A stretch of DNA of 64,000 nucleotides. Source: Okibacterium fritillariae. GTDB lineage: Bacteria > Actinomycetota > Actinomycetes > Actinomycetales > Microbacteriaceae. Below, piece after piece: positions 44,900 through 59,721 of this stretch. How positions within the stretch are numbered: the stretch's first letter is position 1; every line of letters starts with the position of its first letter. Location of the stretch: contig NZ_FUZP01000003.1 in NCBI RefSeq assembly GCF_900167575.1, forward strand, positions 310,001 to 374,000, written 5' to 3'. The notes under the pieces are model-generated. The model was not told the DNA's origin and searched no databases. It worked only from the letters and a program-made list of their open reading frames with translations. A program made the position numbers and the translations under genes.

Positions 44900-45874
44900 T
44901 CAGGCCAGAGCGGTCGTGAACACCTCGAGCGACAGCGCGCGATCTTCGATGCCGCCGCCCTCGTGACCGTTATACGGCCACACCGTGATCTGCTTCGGCC
45001 CGGCGTACTCGTTGAACGATGCGAAGACCGTCGACGGCGGGCAGATGGGGTCCATGAGCGCGACGGTGTACCAGACAGGCGTGCGAGCACGGCGCGCGAA
45101 GTTCACGCCGTCGACATAGGCGACCGTGGTGGCGACATCCTCGACACGGGCCCGCTGGTTGGCCAAGAAGTGGGCGATCTCGGCATAGGGGTTCTCGTTC
45201 GTGATGGTCGTGGCCCGCATGACATCCGAGAGAAACGGCACGAACGCCACGGCAGCGCGCAGATCGTCGCACAGGGCCGCGGCCGCGATGGCGAGCGCGC
45301 CGCCCTGGCTCCCACCCACGACCCCGACGCGCGCGGCGTCGACGATGGGCAGTGCGCGCACCTCGTCGACCGCCAACACGGCGTCGGTGATGAGGCGCCG
45401 GTAGTAATAGGTATCGGGATGCTCGATGCCCGCCGTCATCTTGCCGGGGAACGACGGCCCCGCACCGTGCGGATCGGGCGTGTGGCCGGTGGCCTGCCCG
45501 CGACCGGCACCCTGCCCGCGCGAGTCGACCACGACGTGCACGAAACCCGCCGACGCATATAAGAGGTGCGACAGCGGGTTGCCGCGGCCGGCGCCGTAGC
45601 CCAGGTATTCGACGACGGCCGGCAGCGGGGGTCCGTCGGCGGCACCCGCCGGCGCGATGACCCAGGCGCGGATGCGGTCACCCCCGAACCCCGAGAACTC
45701 GAGGTCGCTGATCTCGACCGCGGTCAGCGGGCTGCGGAACGGCCGGCTCGTCTGCGGGGCGCGCGCGGCGCGGGAGTCGGCCAGGGTGCGCGCCCAGAAG
45801 TCGTCGAAGTCGTCGGGGCGGGAAACGGCGCTGCGAAACTCTCGCAGCGCCGCCTCGGGCAGATCGGTGAACAT
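44900..45874 (-). CDS. acetyl xylan esterase/cephalosporin-C deacetylase-like hydrolase (CE7)
   Basis: This 324-residue alpha/beta hydrolase has RPDDFDDFWARTLADS at the start, DSRGQGAGRGQATGHTPDP, and the nucleophile elbow VGVVGGSQGGALAIAAAAL (Ser in GGSQGG). ALMDPICPPSTVFASFN carries the acid Asp and PYNGHEGGG the His. These match CE7 enzymes, which are cytosolic and remove acetyl groups from short sugars. It is the last gene of the five-gene minus-strand operon (12 bases after the permease). Together with the exported SGNH protein it implies an acetylated substrate. Confidence 0.93.
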   Translation of the reverse strand: MFTDLPEAALREFRSAVSRPDDFDDFWARTLADSRAARAPQTSRPFRSPLTAVEISDLEFSGFGGDRIRAWVIAPAGAADGPPLPAVVEYLGYGAGRGNPLSHLLYASAGFVHVVVDSRGQGAGRGQATGHTPDPHGAGPSFPGKMTAGIEHPDTYYYRRLITDAVLAVDEVRALPIVDAARVGVVGGSQGGALAIAAAALCDDLRAAVAFVPFLSDVMRATTITNENPYAEIAHFLANQRARVEDVATTVAYVDGVNFARRARTPVWYTVALMDPICPPSTVFASFNEYAGPKQITVWPYNGHEGGGIEDRALSLEVFTTALA

Positions 45875-45886
45875 GCAGCGATCCTC

Positions 45887-46828
45887 TCAGCCTTTCAGGC
45901 CCGAATGGGCGAGCCCCTCGACGAACTGCCGTTGGGCGATGAGGAACACGATCAGCACGGGCACCACGGTCATGGTCGCCGCCGCCAGCTGCGTGTCCCA
46001 CATCTCGCCGCCATAGGCGTCGGTGAAACGCGTCAGCGCCTGCGGCAACGTGAAGAGCTCGGGGCTCGTCAGGTAGACCGTCGGCTCGAGGTACATGTTC
46101 CACGAGCCGAGGAACGTGAGGATGGCGACCGCCGATAGAGCCGGTTTGGCCAGCGGCAGGCAGATGCGCCACCAGATGGCCACGCGGCCCAGGCCGTCGA
46201 GCCGCGCCGCCTCCTCCAGCTCCACGGGCAGCGAGATGAAGAACTGTCGCATGATGAAGGTTCCGAGCACCGCGGGGGCGCCGAACGCGGGCACGAGCAG
46301 CAGCGGCAGGTGCGTGTTGATCAGCCCCAGCGTCTTGAAGATCTGGAACAGAGGAATGATCGTCACCTCGCTCGGCACCAGCAACCCCAGCAGCACGATC
46401 AGGAACAGCGTGTTCTTGAAGGGGAACGGGATGCGCGCGAACGCGTACCCCGCGAGGCTCGACACCAGCATCGTCACCACCGTGACCGCGATCGCGATGT
46501 AGAGGCTGTTGACGTATTGCTGCGCGAACGGCTGGAACGTGAAGGCCTCGGCATAGGCATCCACCGTCGGGTTGGCCGCGAAGAGCGTGGGCGGTGACGC
46601 GAAGATCTCGTTGAGCGGTTTGAACGACGACGTGATCATCCAGATGGTCGGCACGGCGAAGGGGATGACCAGCACGATCAACGCGCCGATCAAGATCACC
46701 GAACGCCAACGGCTGCGGATGCGGCGCTCCCGCGTGGTGACGAGCGGGTCGGGCTCGATCGGGCGACCAGCGCCACGACCGGGGCCCCGAGCATCCGACC
46801 GTGTTCTGAGTGTCGGCTCAGTCTTCAT
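45887..46828 (-). CDS. carbohydrate ABC transporter permease (MalG-type)
   Basis: This 313-residue protein has six membrane helices and the CUT1 permease EAA loop in ELEEAARLDGLGRVAIWWRI. It opens with a long basic N-terminus (RSDARGPGRGAGRP, REERIRSRW-like RERRIRSRWRS) and ends in FVEGLAHSGLKG, the typical C-terminus of MalG-like proteins. It overlaps the partner permease by eleven bases. No dedicated ATPase gene is present, as is usual for actinobacterial CUT1 systems that share MsiK. Confidence 0.95.
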   Translation of the reverse strand: MKTEPTLRTRSDARGPGRGAGRPIEPDPLVTTRERRIRSRWRSVILIGALIVLVIPFAVPTIWMITSSFKPLNEIFASPPTLFAANPTVDAYAEAFTFQPFAQQYVNSLYIAIAVTVVTMLVSSLAGYAFARIPFPFKNTLFLIVLLGLLVPSEVTIIPLFQIFKTLGLINTHLPLLLVPAFGAPAVLGTFIMRQFFISLPVELEEAARLDGLGRVAIWWRICLPLAKPALSAVAILTFLGSWNMYLEPTVYLTSPELFTLPQALTRFTDAYGGEMWDTQLAAATMTVVPVLIVFLIAQRQFVEGLAHSGLKG

Positions 46829-47723
46829 AGAAAACCCACTTTCGTCGGAGCTGCCACTGCACGACCGTGAGCACGAGCACGAAGCTCAGGAGCATCAACG
46901 CGAGGGTCGAACCGTAGCCGATGTCGTTGAACTGGAACGCCTGCTGGAAGACGTAGTAGACGAGCACGGTGGTGGACAGGTCGGGGCCACCCTCGGTGAG
47001 CACCGCGACCTGCGCGAACGCCTGCAGCGACCCGACGATCGTGATGATGGCCGTGAGCAGCAGCGTGGGCGAGATGAGCGGCAGCGTGATGCGGAAGAAC
47101 ACGGCCGCGGGGCTGGCGCCATCCACGCGCGCGGCCTCATACAGCTCGCGCGGCACGCCCTGCAGCGCCGACAGGAACAGGATCATGTTGACGCCCACGC
47201 TGCGGATGACCTGCGTGATGATGACGGCGAACATGGCGGTCGGGCCCTGCTGCAGCCAGTTGGGGCCGTCGACCCCGAACATGAGCAGCAGGTTGTTGAT
47301 GGCGCCGTTGTCCTGCAGCAGGAAACCCCACACGAGGGTCCACGCCACGACCGAGATGACGACGGGCGAGAAGAACAGGGTGCGGAACAGGGCACCGCCG
47401 CGGATCTTGCGGTTGAGCAGCACCGCGAGCCCGAGGCCGACCGCCAGGTTCAGGACGACGACGCCGCCCGAGAAGATGGCCGTGGCCCCGAGCACCGCGG
47501 GCAGTTGGGGATCGGCGATCGCGCGGGCGTAGTTGTCGCCCCCGACGAACGTCAGGTTCCCGGTGAAGATGTTCCACTCGTTGAGGCTGAACCAGATGCC
47601 GAGGCCCACCGGGATCAACACGAAGGCGATGATCCCGGCGAACTGTGGCGCGATGAAGACGTACCCGGCAACGACGTCACGCCGTTTGGTGGTCCAGAAG
47701 CTGCGCTGACGCGTTGTCGGCAT
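46818..47723 (-). CDS. carbohydrate ABC transporter permease (MalF-type)
   Basis: This 301-residue protein has six helices (GYVFIAPQFAGIIAFVLIPV first) and the EAA motif LYEAARVDGASPAAVFFRIT. The loop DNGAINNLLLMFGVDGPNWL is typical of UgpA/MalF-type partners. It lies three bases after the binding-protein gene and overlaps the second permease. Together they should import the oligosaccharide delivered by the lipoprotein. Confidence 0.95.
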   Translation of the reverse strand: MPTTRQRSFWTTKRRDVVAGYVFIAPQFAGIIAFVLIPVGLGIWFSLNEWNIFTGNLTFVGGDNYARAIADPQLPAVLGATAIFSGGVVVLNLAVGLGLAVLLNRKIRGGALFRTLFFSPVVISVVAWTLVWGFLLQDNGAINNLLLMFGVDGPNWLQQGPTAMFAVIITQVIRSVGVNMILFLSALQGVPRELYEAARVDGASPAAVFFRITLPLISPTLLLTAIITIVGSLQAFAQVAVLTEGGPDLSTTVLVYYVFQQAFQFNDIGYGSTLALMLLSFVLVLTVVQWQLRRKWVFYED

Positions 47724-47726
47724 GGT

Positions 47727-49019
47727 CTACTCGGCTGTCAGCAGCGGCTTGAGGGCGACGCACATCTCGTCGAGCACCCCGTCGACATCCGCATCGGGTG
47801 TCCACATGCGGTCGAGCACGGTCTTGCCGGTCTGCGCGATCTTGGCGGGACCCGTGTGCACGGGCGGCGACACGGCCTCGGGCAGTTCGTCGACCACGAC
47901 GCGCTCGAGCTGTTCGGCCGAGAGCTTCGTGTTCACGGCGGCCAGCTTCTCGCCCGTGAGCAGCGATTCGCGGGGCGGCGGGAAGAACTGCGCGAGCTTG
48001 GCCGAGTTGGTCGGGTTGGTCAGGAACGCGAGGAAGTCGGTGGATTCCTGCGGGTGCTTGCTCGAGGCGAGCACGCCCATGCCGGCCTGGCCGAGCACCG
48101 AGTACTCGCCGGCGGGTCCGGCGGGCAGCGGGTAGATGTCGTACTCGAACGAGCCGTCGAGCAGCGAGGCGCGCGACACCTGGGCCGTCGTGAAGGCCGA
48201 GTCGCCGGCGAAGAAGTCCGCCGTCACGCCCGGTCCGGGCATCGACTTGTCCACGTAGATGGCGTCGTGCAAGAACTGGAACGCGTCGACCATCTCGGGC
48301 GTGTTCATCTGGCACGTGTCGCCCTTGGCGTTCCAGGCCTCGGCGCCCCAACCGGTCCACACGCTCGGCAGCGTCAGCCACGACGAGTAGTCGAAGTCGC
48401 GGATGACGAAGCCGGCCTTGCCCGTCTTCTCATTGACGGCCGAACCCATCGTCGACACGTCGTCCCAGGTCAGACCCTCGGGGTCGAACGTCTGTCCCGC
48501 CTCGGCCAGCAGCGTCTTGTTGATGTAGAGGGCGAAGGGCGAGTTCGAGAAGGGGTAGGCGTAGAGCTGCCCGTCCTGCGAGAACGACTTGGCCACGCTC
48601 GGCAGGATGTCGTCGAAGTCGTAGCCGTCGGTGGCTTTGAAGGGTTCGGTGAGCGGCACGAGGGCATCCGAGACGATGAGGTCCTTGGCGATGTCACCCA
48701 CCCACGCCATGTCGGGGGCGTTGCCGCCGGCGATCTGCGTGGTGAGCGTCGTGTTGTAGTCGGCGAAGGGCAGCGACTCGAACGTGATCGAGCCGATCTC
48801 GGGGTGGCTCTGCTTGTATTCGTCGGCGACGGAGTTGAAGAGTTCGAGCTGCTTCGCGTCGGAACTCCACACCGACATGCGCAGGTCGACGCTTCCCGCC
48901 GCAGCCGTCGTCGGCGCGGTGGACGGGGAGCCGCCCGAACACGCCGTGATGAGCAACGCGCTCGCCGCCATCGCGGCGATCGTCGTCAGCTTCTTTGCTG
49001 TTGTCATTGCCTCTCTCAT
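47727..49019 (-). CDS. extracellular sugar-binding lipoprotein of the ABC importer
   Basis: The 430-residue product carries a lipoprotein signal: AKKLTTIAAMAASALLITAC with lipobox Cys. ATG 49007 is an alternative start that loses four residues. The mature part is a family 1 solute-binding protein (VDLRMSVWSSDAKQLELFN, QIAGGNAPDMAWVGDIAKDL, GLTWDDVSTM, VLASSKHPQESTDFLAFL). It should capture oligosaccharides outside the membrane. It sits six bases after the FAD oxidoreductase gene and three before the first permease. Confidence 0.95.
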   Translation of the reverse strand: MREAMTTAKKLTTIAAMAASALLITACSGGSPSTAPTTAAAGSVDLRMSVWSSDAKQLELFNSVADEYKQSHPEIGSITFESLPFADYNTTLTTQIAGGNAPDMAWVGDIAKDLIVSDALVPLTEPFKATDGYDFDDILPSVAKSFSQDGQLYAYPFSNSPFALYINKTLLAEAGQTFDPEGLTWDDVSTMGSAVNEKTGKAGFVIRDFDYSSWLTLPSVWTGWGAEAWNAKGDTCQMNTPEMVDAFQFLHDAIYVDKSMPGPGVTADFFAGDSAFTTAQVSRASLLDGSFEYDIYPLPAGPAGEYSVLGQAGMGVLASSKHPQESTDFLAFLTNPTNSAKLAQFFPPPRESLLTGEKLAAVNTKLSAEQLERVVVDELPEAVSPPVHTGPAKIAQTGKTVLDRMWTPDADVDGVLDEMCVALKPLLTAE

Positions 49020-49025
49020 TTCTCG

Positions 49026-50651
49026 CTAGTAGCCCAGGATCTCGGGCCAGTGGATCTCGATACCGGCCGCCTGGAGGTGTTCCTGGAAGTCGGACGTGAG
49101 GTGGTCGTCGTCGTGCACCGCGCGGGGCGTCGTGCCGCCCTCGAGGCAGAACACCGCCAGGTGGCCGGCGGATTCGCCGATGTTCCACTCGACGGGGTGC
49201 AGCCGGTAGGCGCCGTTCGTGATGTGCGTGGTGCCGATGTTCTTCGACGCCGCGATCAGGTTCGACGTCGACGAGGGGATGAGCGCACCCAACGGAATCT
49301 CGAACGGGCTGCACTCGACGTCGATGTAGTTGTCGCCGCCCGTCGACGGGTGCAGGTCGATGCGATACATGCCGACGCCGATCGATTTGTCGAAGGTCGC
49401 GGGCCCGGCGGTGCCGCGACTCGCCACCGAGATGTCCTGCTCGACGATGGTCGTGAGCGCCCGGATGCGACGCGATTCGCGGATGTAGGGCGCCTGGGCG
49501 AGACCGTCCGGGGTGCCGAGCACGTCGCCGCGCAGCCGCAGCCCGGGCCAGCCGGCTCCGCCGTCGGGGCGAGGCGCCTCGGTCTGCAACCAATAGAAGT
49601 AGGAGAGCGAGAGCTGGCGGGCGGCCTCGAGGTGGGTGGCGGCATCCGCGTTGTCGAGGATGGATGCCTCGAGGTAGTCGAGCATGGGCCAGTTCGCGAC
49701 CACGATGTCGCTGTCGTAGGCGCCCGGCGTGAAGTTCGAGCGGGCGAGGATGCGGCGGAACATCCACAGGTCGGAATCGCCGCCCGAGAGGCTCTGGTCG
49801 GAGTCGCGGCCGTCGACGAGCGCCGGGTTCACGACCATGGTGCGCTTCTCGGGCGTGAGCGTGCGCGGGTTCGGGGCGGTGAACGACAGCAGACGGTCGC
49901 CCCAGAACGGCGGCTCATAGCTGCGCCAGAAGTCGTAGTCGGCGGGGCGGTCGATGGTGTTGTCGCCGTCGGTGTGGTCGAAGGCGAAGCACCACGTAAT
50001 GGCCTGCACGTTGTCGGGTTGAGCGGATGCGGGGGCGCTCGGCTCGTGCGTCTCCGAGCGGGCCTCGGCTCCCGTGACGTAGTCGGTGCCCGTGAGGGGC
50101 AGGAGTTCGCCCGTCTCGGTGGCGTCGAGGATGTAGGGCGCCGTGATGGTGATGGTGTCGGCGTCTGCGCGGTGCGAGTCGACGCGGGTGACCGTGACGC
50201 TCGAGACGGTTCCGTCGTGGTGCTCGGCGGCGATCGCCACATAGGGCTGCAGCACGACGAGTCGGCCACTCGAGCGGTGGGGCGCGAGCATCCGCTCGAT
50301 GACGGCGGCCGCGACGCGCGGTTCGTGGCACAGCTTGCTCACGAGGCCGGCGCCGGGGTTTAGACGCGGGTTGAGCCGGGCCTCGGCCGTGAGCGGGTAG
50401 TTGTCGCGGTAGTAATCGCGGATGCCCTCGCGCAGGGCCCGGTAGGACGCCGTGACACCGAACTGCTCGACCCATTTGTGCTCGTCGGGCGGAACGGCCT
50501 GAGAGGTGAGCTGGCCGCCGAGCCAGGCGAACTCGTCGGTGAGGACGGCCCGCCGGCCCGAGCGCACGACCGCCAGGGCCGCGGCCACGCCGCCGAGTCC
50601 GCCGCCGATGATCACGACATCTGTGGTGATCGTGTGGCTGGTCGCCTTCAT
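49026..50651 (-). CDS. FAD-dependent oxidoreductase (FAD_oxidored family)
   Basis: This 541-residue protein has the dinucleotide fold DVVIIGGGLGGVAAALAVVR and the second FAD block TDEFAWLGGQLTSQAVPPDE (WxGG-x3-Q). Further blocks are APYILDATETGELLPLTG and the late ASKNIGTTHITNGAYRLHP, typical of the group often labelled xanthan-lyase-like or FAD_oxidored. There is no signal peptide. It opens the five-gene importer operon, so it probably oxidises the imported sugar or a linked group; the exact reaction is unknown. Two imperfect operator-like repeats lie upstream. Confidence 0.9.
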   Translation of the reverse strand: MKATSHTITTDVVIIGGGLGGVAAALAVVRSGRRAVLTDEFAWLGGQLTSQAVPPDEHKWVEQFGVTASYRALREGIRDYYRDNYPLTAEARLNPRLNPGAGLVSKLCHEPRVAAAVIERMLAPHRSSGRLVVLQPYVAIAAEHHDGTVSSVTVTRVDSHRADADTITITAPYILDATETGELLPLTGTDYVTGAEARSETHEPSAPASAQPDNVQAITWCFAFDHTDGDNTIDRPADYDFWRSYEPPFWGDRLLSFTAPNPRTLTPEKRTMVVNPALVDGRDSDQSLSGGDSDLWMFRRILARSNFTPGAYDSDIVVANWPMLDYLEASILDNADAATHLEAARQLSLSYFYWLQTEAPRPDGGAGWPGLRLRGDVLGTPDGLAQAPYIRESRRIRALTTIVEQDISVASRGTAGPATFDKSIGVGMYRIDLHPSTGGDNYIDVECSPFEIPLGALIPSSTSNLIAASKNIGTTHITNGAYRLHPVEWNIGESAGHLAVFCLEGGTTPRAVHDDDHLTSDFQEHLQAAGIEIHWPEILGY

Positions 50652-52559: not shown

Positions 52560-53459
52560 ATGACTTCAGGCGATCAGTACACCTTCGGAAACCCCGTCGA
52601 ACGATACGGACGGGTCGAGCCCCCCGTGCAGCACCAGCCCGAGCCCGGCGTGCAGGCGCAGATGACGCCCGTGCCCGACCTGGGCGAGAAGACCTACCGC
52701 GGCAGCGGACGCCTCGCGGGCCGCAAAGCGCTCATCACGGGCGGCGACTCGGGCATCGGTGGCGCGGTGGCCATCGCTTTCGCACGCGAGGGGGCGGATG
52801 TCGTCATCGTGCACCTGCCCGCCGAGCAGGAAGACGCCGACCACATCCTCGGGCTGATCAAGGATGCCGGCACCACCGGTCACGCGATCGCCGCCGACAT
52901 CAGCGACCCTGCCCGGTGCCGCGCGATCATCGACGAGACCGTGCGCGTGCTCGGCGGCCTCGACATCCTCGTCAACAATGCCGGCAAGCAGGTGGCCGTC
53001 GACCGCCTCGAAGACCTGAGCGACGAGCAGTTCGAGCAGACCTTCCGCACCAATGTGTTCGCCAACTTCTGGCTCACGAAGGCGGCGCTCCCCCACCTGC
53101 CCGCCGGCGCCAGCATCGTCAACACGGCGTCGCTCGAGGCCTACAAGCCCGCGCCCGACCGCCTCGACTACGCGGCCACGAAGGCGGCGATCAACAACTT
53201 CTCGAAGGGTCTGTCGCAGCAACTCGCGCCGCGCGGCATCCGCGTGAACGTCGTGGCCCCCGGCCCCGTCTGGACCGCGCTGCAGGTGTCGGGCGGCGTC
53301 TCGGACGAGCAGATGAAGGCCTTCGACGACGAGAGCACCTACCAGCGTTCCGGCCAACCGGCCGAGCTGGCGCCCGCCTACGTGTTCCTGGCTTCGGCCG
53401 AGTCGAGCTACGTCTCGGGCGAGACGCTGAACGTCAACGGCGGCATGGTCACTCCGTGA
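52560..53459 (+). CDS. SDR family oxidoreductase (YhdF/GSP39-like)
   Basis: This 299-residue protein has the N-terminal extension of the general-stress SDR group (YTFGNPVERYG, GEKTYRGSGRLAG), then cofactor loop ITGGDSGIGGAVAIAFA, LVNNAGKQVA, catalytic Ser in ASIVNTASLEAY and YAATKAAINNFS with the Tyr-Lys pair. The end ETLNVNGGMVTP is typical. It starts the SDR-hydrolase/subunit 3-GMC operon and overlaps the next gene by GTGA. It may work with the GMC enzyme on one sugar or polyol; this is inferred only from position. Confidence 0.93.
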   Translation: MTSGDQYTFGNPVERYGRVEPPVQHQPEPGVQAQMTPVPDLGEKTYRGSGRLAGRKALITGGDSGIGGAVAIAFAREGADVVIVHLPAEQEDADHILGLIKDAGTTGHAIAADISDPARCRAIIDETVRVLGGLDILVNNAGKQVAVDRLEDLSDEQFEQTFRTNVFANFWLTKAALPHLPAGASIVNTASLEAYKPAPDRLDYAATKAAINNFSKGLSQQLAPRGIRVNVVAPGPVWTALQVSGGVSDEQMKAFDDESTYQRSGQPAELAPAYVFLASAESSYVSGETLNVNGGMVTP

Positions 53460-54871
53460 GCGCCGGCACGACAACGACTGAGCACGTCTGCACCGTCTTC
53501 TTCCTTCCCGGATTGGGCTTCAGCGCCGCGGCCGCCGCTCCGCTCGCGGCCGAACTGGGCGACCGTTTCCGCGTCATCGGCATCGACCTACCCGGTCAGG
53601 GCTCGGCACCCGACGCCGCGAACGGCTCGGTGGCGGCGCAGGTCGACGCCGCCGTGGCAACCATCGAAGCCGAGATCGACGGCGGGCCGTGGATGCTTGC
53701 GGCCCACAGCATGGGCGGCAAAGTCGCGGCCCTGGTGATCGCACGCGTCTTCGATGGCCGCGCCGAGGCCTTCGGGCTCGCGGGCGCCGTGCTGCTCGCG
53801 CCCTCCCCACCGACGCCCGAACCCATGGACGACGACAAGCGCGCCGAGATGCTGGCGTGGGTGGCCGACGGTCCTCTCGACGAGGCCGCCGCCCGCGAGT
53901 TCGTCTCGCAGAACGTGGCGAGCCCCCTCTCCGCGGCCGACGAGAAGGCCGCCGTCGAGCAGGTGCGTGCGACATCCGTGCTGTCCTGGCAACGCTGGCT
54001 CGACGTGGGCAGCCTCCAAGACGTGTCGGCCGAGATCGGCACGCTCGACCTGCCCGTGACCGTGCTGGGCGGCGAGGATGACGACGACCTGGGGTCACTC
54101 GCGCAGTCACGTCTCATCGCGGACGTCTACCCGCGGGCGCGTTTCGTGTCGCTGCCCGAGACCGGACACCTGCTGCCCTATGAGCGACCCGCCGAGGTGG
54201 CGGCCGAGGTGGTGCGCCTCTGGGAGGCTGTGGCCGCGGCATCCCCGACGATTCCTCGCGACTGGGGTCTCGTGATCGCCTCGGGGCGCACCGGCCGCGA
54301 GGCCCGCGCCCTGCTCTCGCGCCGCATGCTCGCCGACGACCCGGACTACCGCCCGCGCGCGCTCACCCCCGGGCAGCTCGACACGTTGCGCTCGCTCGCC
54401 GACCGCTTGTTGCCGCAAGACGGCCCCGGACACATCGACCTCGCGGCGCGCATCGACCGCGACCTGGCCGATGGGCGCACCGACGGCTGGCGTCCCGCGA
54501 AACTGCCCGACGACCCGACCGCCTACCGCCTGGGTCTCGCCGCCCTGGCCGATGCCTGGCCGCACGACGCAGCCGAGCAGGATGCCCTCATCCGCGGAAT
54601 CATCGACGGCGACGGCATCCCCGGCGGCCCGTGGGAAGGCGACATCGTGCGCCGCTGGTTCGAAGACGTGCGCAACGATCTGACGCGCGTGTGGCTCGCG
54701 CATCCGGCCTCGCTCGCCCGCATCGGCTACGACGGTTTCGCCACGAGCGGCGACCACGCCGAACCCGCGGGCTATGTGGCCCTCGCGGCCGGTCGACGCG
54801 ACCCGTGGGAGCCCGCAGACCTCGGCGATCTCGGGGATATCACGCACGACGACAGGGAGCACACCGCATGA
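53456..54871 (+). CDS. alpha/beta hydrolase fused to a gluconate 2-dehydrogenase subunit 3-like domain
   Basis: GTG 53456 overlaps the SDR stop (GTGA) and gives 471 residues. Residues 10-262 form an alpha/beta hydrolase: VFFLPGLGFSAAAAAPL, nucleophile Ser in LAAHSMGGKVAAL, an acid near TVLGGEDDDDLGSL and His in PETGHLLPYERP. Residues 285-471 resemble the small Gluconate_2-dh3 subunit (LTPGQLDTLRSLADRLLPQ, RRWFEDVRNDLTRVWLAHPA, RIGYDGFA). That subunit normally stands alone, often with a Tat signal, as chaperone or partner of a GMC-type flavoprotein. Here it lacks a signal and is fused. The GMC partner follows with ATGA overlap. Confidence 0.85.
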   Translation: MSAGTTTTEHVCTVFFLPGLGFSAAAAAPLAAELGDRFRVIGIDLPGQGSAPDAANGSVAAQVDAAVATIEAEIDGGPWMLAAHSMGGKVAALVIARVFDGRAEAFGLAGAVLLAPSPPTPEPMDDDKRAEMLAWVADGPLDEAAAREFVSQNVASPLSAADEKAAVEQVRATSVLSWQRWLDVGSLQDVSAEIGTLDLPVTVLGGEDDDDLGSLAQSRLIADVYPRARFVSLPETGHLLPYERPAEVAAEVVRLWEAVAAASPTIPRDWGLVIASGRTGREARALLSRRMLADDPDYRPRALTPGQLDTLRSLADRLLPQDGPGHIDLAARIDRDLADGRTDGWRPAKLPDDPTAYRLGLAALADAWPHDAAEQDALIRGIIDGDGIPGGPWEGDIVRRWFEDVRNDLTRVWLAHPASLARIGYDGFATSGDHAEPAGYVALAAGRRDPWEPADLGDLGDITHDDREHTA

Positions 54872-56409
54872 ACCTCACCGACATGCGCACCTATGCCGAG
54901 GACGACGTCGTCGACGTGGTCGTGGTCGGCACCGGCGCGGGCGGGGCACCCCTGCTGGCGCGGCTCGCCGAACGCGGACTGCGCGTCGTGGCCCTCGAGG
55001 CCGGCCCCAACTTCGACCCCGACGACTACACCAACGACGAGGTCGAGGCTCCCCGCATCAACTGGATGTCGGAGCGTCTGAGCGGCGGCGACACCCCGAC
55101 CGCATTCGGCCCCAACAACAGCGGCTTCGGCGTGGGCGGAAGCACCCTGCACTGGGGTGCCTTCACGCCGCGCCCCGACCCGCGCGACCTGTCGCTGCGC
55201 ACCGAGACGGGCGAGGGCGCCGATTGGCCCATCGATCCCGCCGAGCTGACCGGCTACCTCGCCGAGGTCGAGCGGGTCATCGGTGTGTCCGGCCCGACGC
55301 CCTACCCGTGGGACCCCGAGCGCGAATACCTCGAGCCGCCCGTCGACCGCAACGCCTCCGCCGACATCGTGGCCCTCGGCTGCGAGCGCCTCGGCATTCG
55401 CGCGACCGATGCGCCCGCCGCCATCCTGAGCCGCGAGCGCGACCAGCCGCATCACGGGGCCCGGGCGGCGAGCAACAACCTGGGGTCGATTCACCAGGGC
55501 GAGCGCTATGGAACCAAGGCCACCACGGCCATCACCTACCTGCCGGCTGCCGTCGCGAACGGCGCCGAGATCCGCCCCGACGCCATGGTGCACGGCATCG
55601 AGCTCGACGCGCTCGGCCGCGTGTCGGCCGTCGTCTACCGCCAGGATGGTCGCGAGCACCGGCAGCGCTGTGCCGCTCTCGTTCTGGCGGGCGGCGGCAT
55701 CGAGACGCCGCGGCTGCTGCTGAACACGGGCCTCGCCAACTCGAGCGGACAGGTGGGGCGCAACTTCCTGGCCCACGGCGCCGTGCAGGTGTGGGGTCGT
55801 TTCGAGGAGCAGGTGCGCGGCTATCGCGGCTACCCGTCCGCCCTCATCAGCGAGGACTTCGTGCGCCCGTCAGACGCGGACTTCGCGGGCGGCTACCTCA
55901 TCCAGAGCCTGGGCGCGATGCCCCTCACCTACGCCACCTCGCTCGTGCGCGGCGGCGGGCTGTGGGGCGACGAGCTTGTCGACGCCCTGCACGCATCCCG
56001 GTATTCGGCGGGCATCGGCATCAACGCCGAGTGCCTGCCCTCCGAGGACAACCGCCTCGTGCTCTCTGACGAGCGGGATGACTGGGGTGTCCCGCGCGCG
56101 ATCGTGTCGTTCACTCCCGGCGACAACGAGAAGGCCATCGACGAGCACGCCACGGCGACGATGACGCGCATCCTCGAGGCGGCCGGAGCCCTCGACACGC
56201 GGGTTCTCGCCCGCACCGCGCACACGCTCGGCACGTGCCGCATGAGCGTCGACCCCGCCGAGGGTGTCATCGACGGCGACGGCCGCAGCCACGACATCCC
56301 CAACCTCTGGATCTCGGACAACTCCACGTTCCCGAGCGCCCTGAGCGCCAACCCCGGCCTCATCCAGATGGCCCTGTCGCTGCGCACGGCCGATCGGATG
56401 CTGCGCTGA
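54868..56409 (+). CDS. GMC family oxidoreductase (gluconate dehydrogenase large subunit-like)
   Basis: ATG 54868 after CAGGGAG gives 513 residues. The FAD fold is VDVVVVGTGAGGAPLLARLA, followed by SGFGVGGSTLHWGAF. The GMC C-terminal domain shows HTLGTCRMSVDPAEGVID and LWISDNSTFPSALSANPG. Membrane-linked relatives hold a cysteine-rich segment around the GAK-ST block that binds an iron-sulfur cluster; here the segment reads NNLGSIHQGERYGTKATT without cysteine. With no signal peptide and no cytochrome c gene, it is probably a cytosolic oxidase or dehydrogenase using another acceptor. It partners the fused subunit 3 encoded upstream. Confidence 0.9.
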   Translation: MNLTDMRTYAEDDVVDVVVVGTGAGGAPLLARLAERGLRVVALEAGPNFDPDDYTNDEVEAPRINWMSERLSGGDTPTAFGPNNSGFGVGGSTLHWGAFTPRPDPRDLSLRTETGEGADWPIDPAELTGYLAEVERVIGVSGPTPYPWDPEREYLEPPVDRNASADIVALGCERLGIRATDAPAAILSRERDQPHHGARAASNNLGSIHQGERYGTKATTAITYLPAAVANGAEIRPDAMVHGIELDALGRVSAVVYRQDGREHRQRCAALVLAGGGIETPRLLLNTGLANSSGQVGRNFLAHGAVQVWGRFEEQVRGYRGYPSALISEDFVRPSDADFAGGYLIQSLGAMPLTYATSLVRGGGLWGDELVDALHASRYSAGIGINAECLPSEDNRLVLSDERDDWGVPRAIVSFTPGDNEKAIDEHATATMTRILEAAGALDTRVLARTAHTLGTCRMSVDPAEGVIDGDGRSHDIPNLWISDNSTFPSALSANPGLIQMALSLRTADRMLR

Positions 56410-56453: not shown

Positions 56454-56483
56454 CGGCTCCACCCCCGCGCTAGGGTGGAGCCG
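56454..56483 (+). promoter_or_regulatory. hairpin covering the ribosome site of the LacI gene
   Basis: CGGCTCCACCC (56454-56464) pairs perfectly with GGGTGGAGCCG (56473-56483) over an 8-base loop. The right arm contains the GGTGGAG ribosome site and ends on the G of the GTG start. It may lower LacI translation and may also act as a terminator for the upstream GMC operon. Confidence 0.65.
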
Positions 56484-57505
56484 TGAGCACACCGCCGATT
56501 CGCCGCAAACGCGCGACGATTCACGATGTCGCCATCGAGGCGGGGGTATCTCGCGGCACAGTCAGCCGCGTCGTCAACGGCGAGCGATATGTCTCGGCCG
56601 AGGCGCGTGAGGCCATCGAGTCGGCCATCGCCAAGGTCGGCTATGTGCCCAACACGGCAGCCCGCAACCTGGTCATGCAGCGCACGCAGGCCGTCGGTTT
56701 CGTGGTTCACGAGCCGCACAGCCTGTTCGTCGACGACCCCAACATCGGCAACATCCTGCTGGGCGCCAACGAGGCCCTGAGCGAGGCCGACCATCAGCTC
56801 GTGTGCCTGGTCGTCGATTCGGAGCGCGACACCGACCGCATCACGCGCTATCTCTCGGGCGGTTTCGTCGACGGCGTCATCATGGTGTCGGCGCGCCAGA
56901 ACGACCCGATCACGCGCGTCATCGAGCGCCTGGGCCTGCCCGCCACCTTTGTCGGGCACCCACCCGATCTGCGCGCCCTCCCCTTCGTCGGCATCGACAA
57001 CCGCAAAGCCGCTGCGGATGTCACGGCCGAGCTCGTGGGCCGGGGCCGTCGTCGCATCGGCATGATCGCCGCGGCGCTCGACCGCGATTCGGGCTCCGAC
57101 CGCCTCGCCGGTTTTCGGGATGCCCTGGGCGACCGTTTCGACGAGTCCCTCGTGGTCGACGTCCCCCTCTATTCCTATGACGACGGCTTCGAGGGCATGA
57201 GCGTGCTGCTCGGCCGGGACCCGTCGATCGACGGCGTGTTCGCCGCGTCGGATGCCGTGGCGGCGGGCGCTCTCGAGGCGCTGCGCGTCTCGGGCCGCCG
57301 CGTTCCCGACGATGTGTCGCTCGTCGGTTTCGACGATTCGGCGTGGGCGCTGCGCTGTCATCCCCCTCTCACGACCGTGCACCAGCCGGCCGCCGCGGTG
57401 GGCCAGCGCGCCGCCGAGGTGCTGCTCGCTCAGCTGCGCGGTGAGGATGTCTCACTCGAGGGCTCGCTCGTGCCCACCTCGGTCGTCCGCCGCGGCACGG
57501 TCTAA
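56483..57505 (+). CDS. LacI family transcriptional regulator
   Basis: GTG 56483 starts a 340-residue LacI protein with helix-turn-helix ATIHDVAIEAGVSRGTVSRV, hinge VGYVPNTAARNLVMQ and a sugar-binding core (VGFVVHEPHSLFVDDP, VDGVIMVSARQNDP, FVGIDNRKAAADVTAEL, SLVGFDDSAWALRCHPPLTT). It lies 73 bases after the GMC gene on the same strand and is a likely regulator of that operon. Its ribosome site is inside a perfect hairpin. It is convergent with clpB. Confidence 0.93.
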   Translation: MSTPPIRRKRATIHDVAIEAGVSRGTVSRVVNGERYVSAEAREAIESAIAKVGYVPNTAARNLVMQRTQAVGFVVHEPHSLFVDDPNIGNILLGANEALSEADHQLVCLVVDSERDTDRITRYLSGGFVDGVIMVSARQNDPITRVIERLGLPATFVGHPPDLRALPFVGIDNRKAAADVTAELVGRGRRRIGMIAAALDRDSGSDRLAGFRDALGDRFDESLVVDVPLYSYDDGFEGMSVLLGRDPSIDGVFAASDAVAAGALEALRVSGRRVPDDVSLVGFDDSAWALRCHPPLTTVHQPAAAVGQRAAEVLLAQLRGEDVSLEGSLVPTSVVRRGTV

Positions 57506-57516
57506 TCCCGGGGGTA

Positions 57517-59676
57517 CTAGTCGGCCGGCTCGGGAGCGATCGCCGATACGGTGAGCGCGTCGGCGGCCGCGTCGAGGTCGACGCGCACGGTGTCGCCGTC
57601 GCGGATCTGGCCGGCCAGGATGCCCGTCGCGAGCCGGTCGTCGATCTCGTTCTGCATGAGTCGTCGCAGCGGCCGGGCCCCGTAGATGGGGTCGTAGCCG
57701 CGCTCGGCCAGCCAGCTGCGCGCGTCGGGGGTGACGGCGAGCTCGAGACGGCGTTCGCCGAGGCGGCGCTGCAGCCGCTCGATGTAGAGCTCGACGATCT
57801 GGCCGAGGTCTTCTTCGCTGAGCGTCTGGAACACGACGATGTCGTCGAGTCGGTTGACGAACTCGGGCTTGAAGGCCTGGCGCACCATCTGCTGCACGGC
57901 CTCCTCTTTGGCGGCCGGGTCGAGCGTCGGGTCGACGAGGTATTGCGAGCCGAGGTTGGAGGTCAGGATCAGGATGGTGTTGCGGAAGTCGACCGTGCGG
58001 CCCTGGCCGTCGGTGAGCCGACCGTCGTCGAGCACCTGCAGCAGGATGTCGAACACCTCGGGGTGTGCCTTCTCGACCTCGTCGAGCAGCACGACCGAGT
58101 AGGGGCGTCGGCGCACGGCTTCGGTGAGCTGGCCGCCCGCCTCGTAGCCGATGTATCCCGGAGGGGCACCGACGAGCCGCGAGACCGAGTGCTTCTCGCC
58201 GTATTCGGACATGTCGATGCGCACGAGGGCTTTTTCGTCGTCGAACAGGAACTCGGCGAGCGCCTTGGCCAGCTCGGTCTTGCCCACACCGGTGGGCCCG
58301 AGGAACAGGAACGACCCGGTGGGCCGATCGGGGTCGGAGATGCCGGCCCGCGTGCGGCGCACGGCGTCGGACACCGACCGCACGGCACGCTTCTGCCCGA
58401 TCAGCCGCTTGGCGAGCTCTTGTTCGAGGTGCAGCAGCTTCTCGGTCTCGCCCTGCAGCAGGCGGCCGACCGGGATGCCGGTCCAGGCCGCGATGACGGC
58501 GGCGATGTCTTCGCTCGTGACCTGGTCGTTGACCATGCGCGGCTCGGTGTTCTCGACGAGCTCGGCTTCGGCCAGCTCGCGTTGGATGACGGGGATCTCG
58601 CCGTAGAGCAGACGTGAGGCCTGCTCGAGGTTGCCCTCGCGCTGGGCCCGGTCGGCCTTGATGCGCGCGGCGTCGAGTTTCTCTTTCAGTTCACCCACGC
58701 GGTTGAGCTGCGACCGTTCGCGATCCCACCGCGCCTCGAGCTCGAGCAGCTCGGCTTCGCGCGTGCGCAGATCCTCGCGCAGCGTCTCGAGGCGTTGCTT
58801 GGACGCGTCGTCTTTCTCCTTCTTGAGCGCGAGTTCTTCGAGCTTCAGCCGGTCGACGCTGCGGCGCAGCTCGTCGATCTCGACGGGGGCCGAGTCGATC
58901 TCCATGCGCAGCCGGCTCGCGGCCTCGTCGATGAGGTCGATGGCCTTGTCGGGCAGCTGGCGGGCCGGAATATAGCGGTTGGACAGCGAGGCCGCCGAGA
59001 TGAGCGCCGAGTCGGCGATCGTCACCTTGTGGTGGGCCTCGTAGCGCTCCTTCAGACCGCGCAGGATGGCGACGGTGTCGATGACCGACGGCTCCCCGAC
59101 GAAGACCTGCTGGAACCGCCGCTCCATAGCGGCGTCTTTCTCGATGTATTCGCGGTATTCGTCGAGCGTTGTGGCGCCGATGAGCCGCAGCTCACCGCGG
59201 GCCAGCATGGGCTTGAGCATGTTGGCGGCCGCCACCGAGCCCTCGCCCGCGCCGGCACCCATGAGCGTGTGCAGCTCGTCGATGAACGTGATGACCTGGC
59301 CGTCGGCGTCGTTGATCTCTTTCAGCACCGCCTTGAGGCGCTCCTCGAACTCGCCGCGGTACTTCGCACCGGCCACGAGCGCGGCGAGGTCGAGCGAGAC
59401 GATCTGCTTTCCCTTCAGCGAATCGGCCACGTCGCCCGCGACGATGCGCTGCGCGAGCCCCTCGACCACGGCCGTCTTTCCGACTCCGGGCTCACCGATG
59501 AGCACCGGGTTGTTCTTGGTGCGCCGTGTGAGCACCTGGCTGACGCGCCGGATCTCGGCGTCTCGCCCGATGACGGGGTCGAGCTTGCCGGATGCCGCGA
59601 CGTCGGTGAGATTGACGCCGTATTGCTCGAGCGCGCTCTTCTGGTCTTCCTGCGGCGGCATCTGCCCAGCTTGCAT
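57517..59676 (-). CDS. clpB: ATP-dependent disaggregase ClpB without N-terminal domain
   Basis: ATG 59676 follows GGGAGGAG at the right distance and gives 719 residues; ATG 59721 would lie inside the regulatory repeat. The Clp_N domain of full ClpB (about 860 residues) is absent: the protein begins with a short Gln-rich leader and enters NBD1 at [13 protein letters not shown]. Walker A motifs are GEPGVGKT and GPTGVGKT. The coiled-coil M-domain runs from about 280 to 400. Arg fingers and the [15 protein letters not shown] pore loop are in place. It rescues aggregated proteins with DnaK/DnaJ. A HAIR-type HspR site lies directly upstream. Confidence 0.97.
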
Positions 59677-59702
59677 GTGGTTGATCTCCTCCCAGAGATA
59701 AG

Positions 59703-59721
59703 TTGAGTCGTTGTGACTCAA
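59703..59721 (-). promoter_or_regulatory. HAIR element (HspR binding site) of clpB
   Basis: TTGAGT-N7-ACTCAA fits the HspR-associated inverted repeat (CTTGAGT-N7-ACTCAAG) except for the outer base on each side. It lies 27 bases before the clpB start. HspR represses clpB and dnaK in Actinobacteria and is lifted under heat shock. Confidence 0.88.

Follow-up and report, generated by a model that had tools for sequence, protein, structure and literature searches.

What kind of enzyme is encoded by a gene pair of Okibacterium fritillariae in which a Gluconate_2-dh3 subunit is fused to an alpha/beta hydrolase and the accompanying GMC flavoprotein has lost a set of cysteines that its relatives retain? 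The pair was analysed within a window of 64,000 nucleotides (contig NZ_FUZP01000003.1, positions 310,001 to 374,000). A sequence-only reading of this DNA had located both genes correctly and had proposed a cytosolic, cytochrome-free version of a usually membrane-bound dehydrogenase that oxidises a sugar to a lactone, which the hydrolase then cleaves.

Gene organization

The features of the locus, in window coordinates, are:

52560..53459, + strand: SDR oxidoreductase (YghA-like), which opens a three-gene overlapping unit; of the NCBIfam PRK06128/PRK07985 type, with scores below those cut-offs
53456..54871, + strand: alpha/beta hydrolase and Gluconate_2-dh3 fusion gene, 471 aa (Pfam, relatives)
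53486..54250, + strand: alpha/beta-hydrolase domain, about residues 11-265 (Pfam, Foldseek esterase matches)
53708-53710, 54080-54082 and 54167-54169, + strand: hydrolase triad codons Ser85, Asp209 and His238
54329..54823, + strand: Gluconate_2-dh3 (hitchhiker/gamma-subunit-like) domain, about residues 292-456 (PF13618)
54868..56409, + strand: GMC flavoprotein, 513 aa (Pfam GMC_oxred_N/C)
55471..55503, + strand: ex-iron-sulphur loop of the GMC protein, residues 202/205/208/212 (90-sequence alignment)
56483..57505, + strand: LacI-family regulator, the 3' neighbour (Pfam), only possibly a local regulator

The GTG start codon of the fusion gene overlaps the SDR stop codon, and the fusion gene is joined to the GMC gene by an ATGA overlap, a type of junction found between these two genes in 62 of the 76 loci. 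Among the same 76 loci, a close LacI gene at that 3' place occurs only in the window and in its nearest relative (L028).

The fusion protein

Both Pfam domains of the fusion lie in a single open frame. Abhydrolase_6 matches residues 14-250 (E 1e-20) and Gluconate_2-dh3 (PF13618) matches residues 307-419 with 26.8 bits against a cut-off of 23.4 (E 7e-6). The architecture is kept in the 11 other sequences of alignment A1 at 40-87% identity, and the search for further fusions that had been suggested from the sequence yielded 76 called loci. Since the same architecture is conserved in these relatives, the fusion is neither a sequencing artefact nor a chance event. PF13618 matches 11 of the 12 aligned domains at E 0.01, and just 7 of the 12 full-length fusions at E 0.001. 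A profile of the domain (A5) gave only chance-level matches in the PDB (best E 0.14) and did not recover the solved gamma subunits, so that membership in the Gluconate_2-dh3 family rests on modest Pfam scores. Structure prediction of the fusion from eight near sequences reached a moderate mean pLDDT of 63.5; the Gluconate_2-dh3 domain is helical in the predicted model, and the Foldseek matches of the model are alpha/beta hydrolases (esterases, MenH and others) that single out no one substrate.

The GMC flavoprotein and its lost cysteines

The GMC protein scores above the Pfam cut-offs for both GMC_oxred_N and GMC_oxred_C. Its nearest solved relatives are the fructose dehydrogenase large subunit (PDB 7w2j, 8k6k), which is the best full-length match (E 8e-40), and the FAD-glucose dehydrogenase alpha subunit; the match to these catalytic subunits spans the whole length of the protein (E 8e-40 to 6e-38). 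It falls far below the NCBIfam cut-offs for pyranose oxidase (48 vs 545) and MftG (56 vs 387). Prediction of its structure from eight near sequences gave a mean pLDDT of 35. His95, at the position of covalent FAD attachment, and the catalytic pair His452/Asn495 are invariant in 12 of 12 aligned sequences; their equivalents in Burkholderia glucose dehydrogenase are His105, His476 and Asn519 (PMC6719666).

Residues 202, 205, 208 and 212 of the window protein are S, L, I and E at positions occupied by C, C, C and C in relatives, bearing out the claimed loss, and four cysteines remain elsewhere in the protein. The 3Fe-4S ligands of the Burkholderia enzyme are Cys212/218/222 (PMC6719666). The ligand columns of the GMC family show this 6/4 spacing and are occupied in the window by S202, I208 and E212, with which a cluster would be absent. 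All three columns are Cys in 58 of 90 aligned sequences and none is Cys in the other 32, in every one of which the last ligand position is Glu or Asp. The tree places two separate losses of the ligand cysteines, and a tree with a single cysteine-less clade was rejected (AU p=0.008). The CGxCH loop of the cysteine-keeping members resembles a CxxCH heme c motif. This assignment was rejected because A, S or R replaces the first Cys of the loop in 16 of these 58 sequences, whereas the three ligand columns are conserved.

A cytosolic, cytochrome-free family

Fructose dehydrogenase has a cytochrome subunit. At none of the 76 loci was a c-type cytochrome found at a distance of up to about five genes; CxxCH matches near the loci belong to the GMC loop itself, to a zinc alcohol dehydrogenase, or to UvrA-like, HNH-like or thioredoxin-reductase-like proteins (the latter identified by eye). 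A simple hydropathy and motif scan detected neither a twin-arginine motif nor a convincing signal helix in the window fusion or GMC protein. The two absences noted earlier therefore hold within these scopes, and the enzyme pair is probably cytosolic, although a distant, unrecognised electron carrier may exist elsewhere. Since no locus has a nearby c-type cytochrome, the description "cytosolic and cytochrome-free" applies family-wide: the view of the pair as a cytosolic relative of membrane-bound dehydrogenases stands, for the family at large and not for the window alone. Because most family members keep the 3Fe-4S cysteines, the cysteine loss is, judging from the sequences, an event separate from and later than the cytosolic, cytochrome-free state of the family.

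Occurrence and neighbouring genes

Of 398 genomes sampled from the Microbacteriaceae, a family of soil bacteria, 71 have the fusion/GMC pair, which also occurs in fused form on four proteobacterial plasmids (Comamonadaceae, Sphingomonas, Methylobacterium). On three Deinococcus plasmids each of the three parts has its own gene and these genes are clustered, in one plasmid as a contiguous Gluconate_2-dh3, GMC and hydrolase series. The hydrolase is thus part of a fusion protein in both Actinomycetota and Pseudomonadota, and in Deinococcus it has its own gene within the cluster, which upholds the earlier view of it as a true partner.

Directly 5' of the fusion gene and in the same orientation, 29 of the 76 fusion loci have an SDR gene. 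It overlaps the fusion gene through a GTGA/ATGA-type junction in 25 of these 29, and in the window's clade it is usually 5' of the pair. It was considered as a cause of the cysteine loss and rejected: L128 and L144 have an upstream SDR together with all cysteines, and no member of the second cysteine-less clade has an SDR upstream. With two losses only, no test of this association has power.

Gfo/Idh/MocA enzymes have been linked to 3-keto-glycosides. In two Deinococcus clusters the GMC and hydrolase genes are separated by genes for such an enzyme and for a family 1 glycosidase, and GH15-type neighbours occur at 8 of 77 family loci (one of these scanned) and in the Comamonadaceae record. All three kinds of neighbour are missing from the window and from most loci.

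Comparison with known systems

The gamma-alpha complex of Burkholderia cepacia FAD-glucose dehydrogenase (PDB 6a2u/8grj) likewise combines a GMC catalytic subunit with a Gluconate_2-dh3-type partner. It shares the His/Asn pair and the covalent-FAD His with the window protein, and its 3Fe-4S loop aligns to the window loop. Unlike the B. cepacia enzyme, the window pair lacks the cluster cysteines, the inter-subunit disulphide cysteine and the glucose-contact asparagines, has no Tat signal or nearby cytochrome gene, and carries a fused hydrolase. Fructose dehydrogenase also retains the loop cysteines in the alignment, in contrast to the window protein. Other actinobacterial GMC and Gluconate_2-dh3 pairs (L034-L037, L146-L154) have adjacent genes as in the window, but they retain three cluster cysteines, lack the hydrolase fusion and reach no more than about 350-440 bits against the profile of the family. 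Deinococcus psychrotolerans (L166) has the same three parts, and its hydrolase shares the APSPPTPEPM and GHSMGGK motifs; it differs in having three separate genes and in retaining the cluster cysteines. A full-text search of open-licence literature returned no paper describing a fusion of this kind or a natural loss of the cluster.

Proposed function

We propose, with a probability of about 0.6, that the family is a cytosolic heteromeric FAD enzyme formed by the GMC protein and the Gluconate_2-dh3 subunit, with an accessory hydrolase and with direct flavin reoxidation where the cysteines are absent. The GMC protein would oxidise an alcohol or sugar by means of His452/Asn495. The Gluconate_2-dh3 domain would bind it as a permanent structural subunit, having given up a Tat-hitchhiker role, and the fused hydrolase would be an accessory that some lineages can do without, acting on an ester-type compound that enters or leaves this pathway. 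Most family members would have a 3Fe-4S cluster where electrons leave the flavin, and it would hand them to some cytosolic acceptor. The cluster ligands disappeared together in the clade of the window and, independently, in one further lineage, so that there the reduced FAD would have to give its electrons directly to O2 or to a small soluble compound, for instance a quinone. The most likely function of the window pair is that of a cytosolic, FAD-dependent dehydrogenase or oxidase of alcohols or sugars whose flavin would deliver electrons directly to a soluble acceptor. The SDR encoded in this operon probably acts on the carbonyl product with NAD(P).

The pair might instead oxidise a glycoside or polyol to a keto-sugar, like a glucoside 3-dehydrogenase; the keto product would then go to the SDR or to a Gfo/Idh/MocA enzyme, and the hydrolase would take off acyl groups. 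We regard this as a tentative possibility: it draws on the glycosidase, GH15-type and Gfo/Idh/MocA neighbours, the last linked to 3-keto-glycosides in PMC11239390, but neither the window nor the majority of loci has such neighbours, and no substrate residue supports it. It is rather unlikely that the hydrolase occupies the cytochrome-docking face, giving a self-contained cytosolic two-step enzyme, and that the GMC protein, after two relay losses in which the last ligand became Glu/Asp, is a true O2 oxidase.

The original proposal, an aldose dehydrogenase yielding a sugar lactone with the fused hydrolase as its lactonase, fared poorly and is improbable. Relationship to FAD-glucose dehydrogenase, a Ser-Asp-His triad intact in 77 of 85 aligned hydrolase sequences and weak similarity to 3-oxoadipate enol-lactonase are all consistent with it. 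However, Asn474/Asn475, which contact glucose just before the catalytic His of the Burkholderia enzyme (PMC6719666), are replaced by Thr450-Ala451. The hydrolase scores 39 against a PcaD cut-off of 256, no better than for MenH, and is far under the NCBIfam cut-offs of all other named enzymes too. Its catalytic residues are moreover gone in 7 of 77 loci, from at least six lineages, in which the Gluconate_2-dh3 and GMC parts persist. Finally, although a conserved cofactor site was lost in one branch, it is highly improbable that the GMC protein without these cysteines has degenerated or is a remnant that no longer catalyses a reaction, given its invariant catalytic and FAD residues, the 78-96% identity of the seven other cysteine-less sequences in the 12-sequence alignment to the window's, and the retained SDR operon overlap.

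FAD-glucose dehydrogenases with a 3Fe-4S relay serve in direct-electron-transfer glucose sensors. The double relay loss, together with close relatives that keep the ligands, provides natural pairs in which to probe the need for the cluster and what sets dehydrogenase versus oxidase behaviour; if the GMC protein became a true oxidase after relay loss, these would be natural before-and-after pairs. The fusion of the hydrolase in two phyla and its clustering in a third point to an undescribed enzyme partnership.

The fusion and its GMC partner

An overlapping three-gene run on the plus strand encodes an SDR oxidoreductase, a protein in which an alpha/beta hydrolase is fused to a Gluconate_2-dh3 domain (PF13618), and a GMC flavoprotein; a regulator gene follows.

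52560-53459, plus strand: SDR oxidoreductase
53456-54871, plus strand: alpha/beta hydrolase and Gluconate_2-dh3 fusion, 471 amino acids (Pfam)
54868-56409, plus strand: GMC flavoprotein, 513 amino acids
from 56483: LacI regulator, after the GMC gene

The fusion matches Abhydrolase_6 (75 bits) and Gluconate_2-dh3 (26.8 bits; cut-off 23.4) in Pfam. Among solved proteins, the GMC protein is closest to the fructose dehydrogenase and FAD-glucose dehydrogenase catalytic subunits. The O. fritillariae genome holds no second member of this particular GMC family. A PF13618 family search of the same genome gave no match, although the window domain lies above the cut-off in the Pfam scan; the domain evidently escaped the initial six-frame scan, a sign of how easily Gluconate_2-dh3 is overlooked. 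Near the operon, a divergent minus-strand cluster (45005-50651) contains an acetyl xylan esterase (45005-45874), sugar-type ABC transporter genes including a solute-binding protein (47730-49007), and a FAD_oxidored protein (49029-50651). Further along, at 57520-59721 on the minus strand, lies a Clp-type AAA+ ATPase of 734 amino acids for which Pfam reports both AAA modules and D2-small, and no Clp N-terminal domain.

By our count, 71 of 398 sampled Microbacteriaceae genomes contain a place scoring at least 570 bits with the GMC profile, the next best being 442 bits. Sampling 396 genomes at order level and 394 at class level yielded two additional Microbacteriaceae (G640 and G695) and G562, which belongs to another family; the other matches were weaker (about 370-440 bits). 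The 77 family loci fetched comprise all 71 places plus L022, L023, L027 and L143-L145. A hydrolase/Gluconate_2-dh3 gene was called next to the GMC gene in 76 of them; in the exception, L132, the fusion open frame is present and was missed by the gene caller or the clustering. The two genes share an ATGA-type overlap in 62 of 76 loci. The pairing is more than chance, and, judged from sequence, fusion and GMC protein are a real, conserved enzyme pair. At outgroup GMC/Gluconate_2-dh3 loci (L034-L037, L146-L153) a small conserved protein (cluster 4, 13 loci) adjoins the pair; the one copy scanned, from L036, had no Pfam match.

Loss of the iron-sulphur ligands

According to PMC6719666, the 3Fe-4S cluster of Burkholderia glucose dehydrogenase is bound by Cys212, Cys218 and Cys222, and Cys213 is bonded to the small subunit. 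The window protein, whose numbering is that of Burkholderia minus ten throughout (His95 for His105 included), has S202, I208 and E212 instead. Among 90 aligned GMC sequences all three cysteines are present in 58, none in 32 and a mixture in 0, as cluster loss predicts. The last ligand column is acidic in every cysteine-less sequence (Glu 27, Asp 5), and among the 58 keepers column 205, the fourth cysteine position, is variable (C 42, R 13, A 2, S 1). Within the loop of cysteine-keeping members such as L031, CGxCH resembles a haem-c motif and could be taken for one in motif scans. The Pfam matches and this alignment bear out the parts named by the sequence-only reading, a fused hydrolase/Gluconate_2-dh3 protein and a cysteine-poor GMC partner.

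A tree of 87 GMC rows, built with the loop columns removed and omitting the partial sequences of L022, L142 and L159, requires two state changes and places the window protein in a large cysteine-less clade of 27 rows. A second tree has 57 rows, eight of them from plasmids and 49 chosen by hand from the 90. There, a small cysteine-less clade is surrounded by cysteine-keeping sequences of Sphingomonas, Methylobacterium and Deinococcus, and a tree constrained to unite its 20 cysteine-less rows was 92 log units worse (AU p 0.008). Both trees are quick ones, with long branches meeting near the root of the second. Of 76 loci, 29 have an SDR gene immediately upstream of the pair in the same orientation, and 27 of these 29 are cysteine-less. 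The other two, L128 and L144, keep the cysteines and sit on the sister branch, so the SDR probably joined the operon before the cysteines went; with two losses, a statistical link between SDR and cysteine loss cannot be claimed.

The hydrolase and its plasmid relatives

Of 85 hydrolases aligned, from the 77 family loci and from eight relatives on plasmids, 77 retain Ser85, Asp209 and His238. Seven of the eight exceptions (L027, L105, L110, L117, L120, L128 and L139) are shortened fusions of 324-359 amino acids that lack the nucleophile motif, with the Gluconate_2-dh3 domain still joined and the GMC gene following. The eighth, L140, retains Ser and His, its deviation probably being an alignment shift. 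Because L105 and L110 form the only sister pair among these seven in the tree, the hydrolase decayed independently at least six times, which suggests that its activity is useful but dispensable.

Outside the family, annotated plasmids of one Comamonadaceae strain, two Sphingomonas and Methylobacterium bullatum carry the same fusion with a GMC neighbour, and the hydrolase is a gene of its own on three Deinococcus plasmids. Gluconate_2-dh3, GMC and hydrolase genes are contiguous in D. psychrotolerans; a Gfo/Idh/MocA enzyme and a family 1 glycosidase intervene in D. gobiensis and D. actinosclerus. GHSMGGK occurs in these stand-alone hydrolases, and APSPPTPEPM as well in the two whose full sequence was read. 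That the hydrolase is fused in some lineages but encoded by its own gene within the cluster in others makes a good case that the three parts work together. On a Roseomonas mucosa plasmid (L169), a stand-alone hydrolase relative lies beside a GH15 gene, with no GMC or Gluconate_2-dh3 annotated nearby.

Location and proposed function

A simple hydropathy and motif scan of the window's proteins picked up neither a twin-arginine motif nor a clear signal-like segment, and no c-type cytochrome is encoded within about five genes at 76 loci, in keeping with the earlier proposal of a cytosolic, cytochrome-free enzyme. Four family fusions have an RR pair within the first 45 residues, by eye inside the hydrolase fold.

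The conserved catalytic and flavin residues suggest that the GMC protein should be an active FAD-dependent oxidiser of an alcohol or sugar, which would work in complex with the fusion's Gluconate_2-dh3 domain. Lacking the cluster, it would pass flavin electrons directly to O2 or a small acceptor, and the SDR and hydrolase would process either its product or a substrate in protected form. The pathway originally envisaged, in which an aldose is oxidized to a lactone that the hydrolase then cleaves, is possible, but it is opposed by the hydrolase decay and by the missing glucose-contact asparagines, replaced by Thr450-Ala451 in the window protein. GH15 (trehalase-like) neighbours in 8 of 77 family loci, glycosidases near the pair on plasmids of proteobacteria and Deinococcus, and Dps-type (starvation-protection) genes next to both Sphingomonas copies hint at glycosides or stress physiology. 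Seven loci of the cysteine-less clade (L029, L081, L082, L086-L088 and L091) have a zinc alcohol dehydrogenase and an adjacent metallo-beta-lactamase-fold protein near the pair, presumably resembling mycothiol-dependent formaldehyde detoxification genes.

Among open-licence full texts we found no paper on the fusion or on natural cluster loss, and passages of PMC8070244, PMC7105596 and PMC10551460 have no direct bearing on the family. What makes the pair interesting is not a sugar-lactone pathway but that a family already cytosolic has repeatedly lost all of its iron-sulphur ligands.
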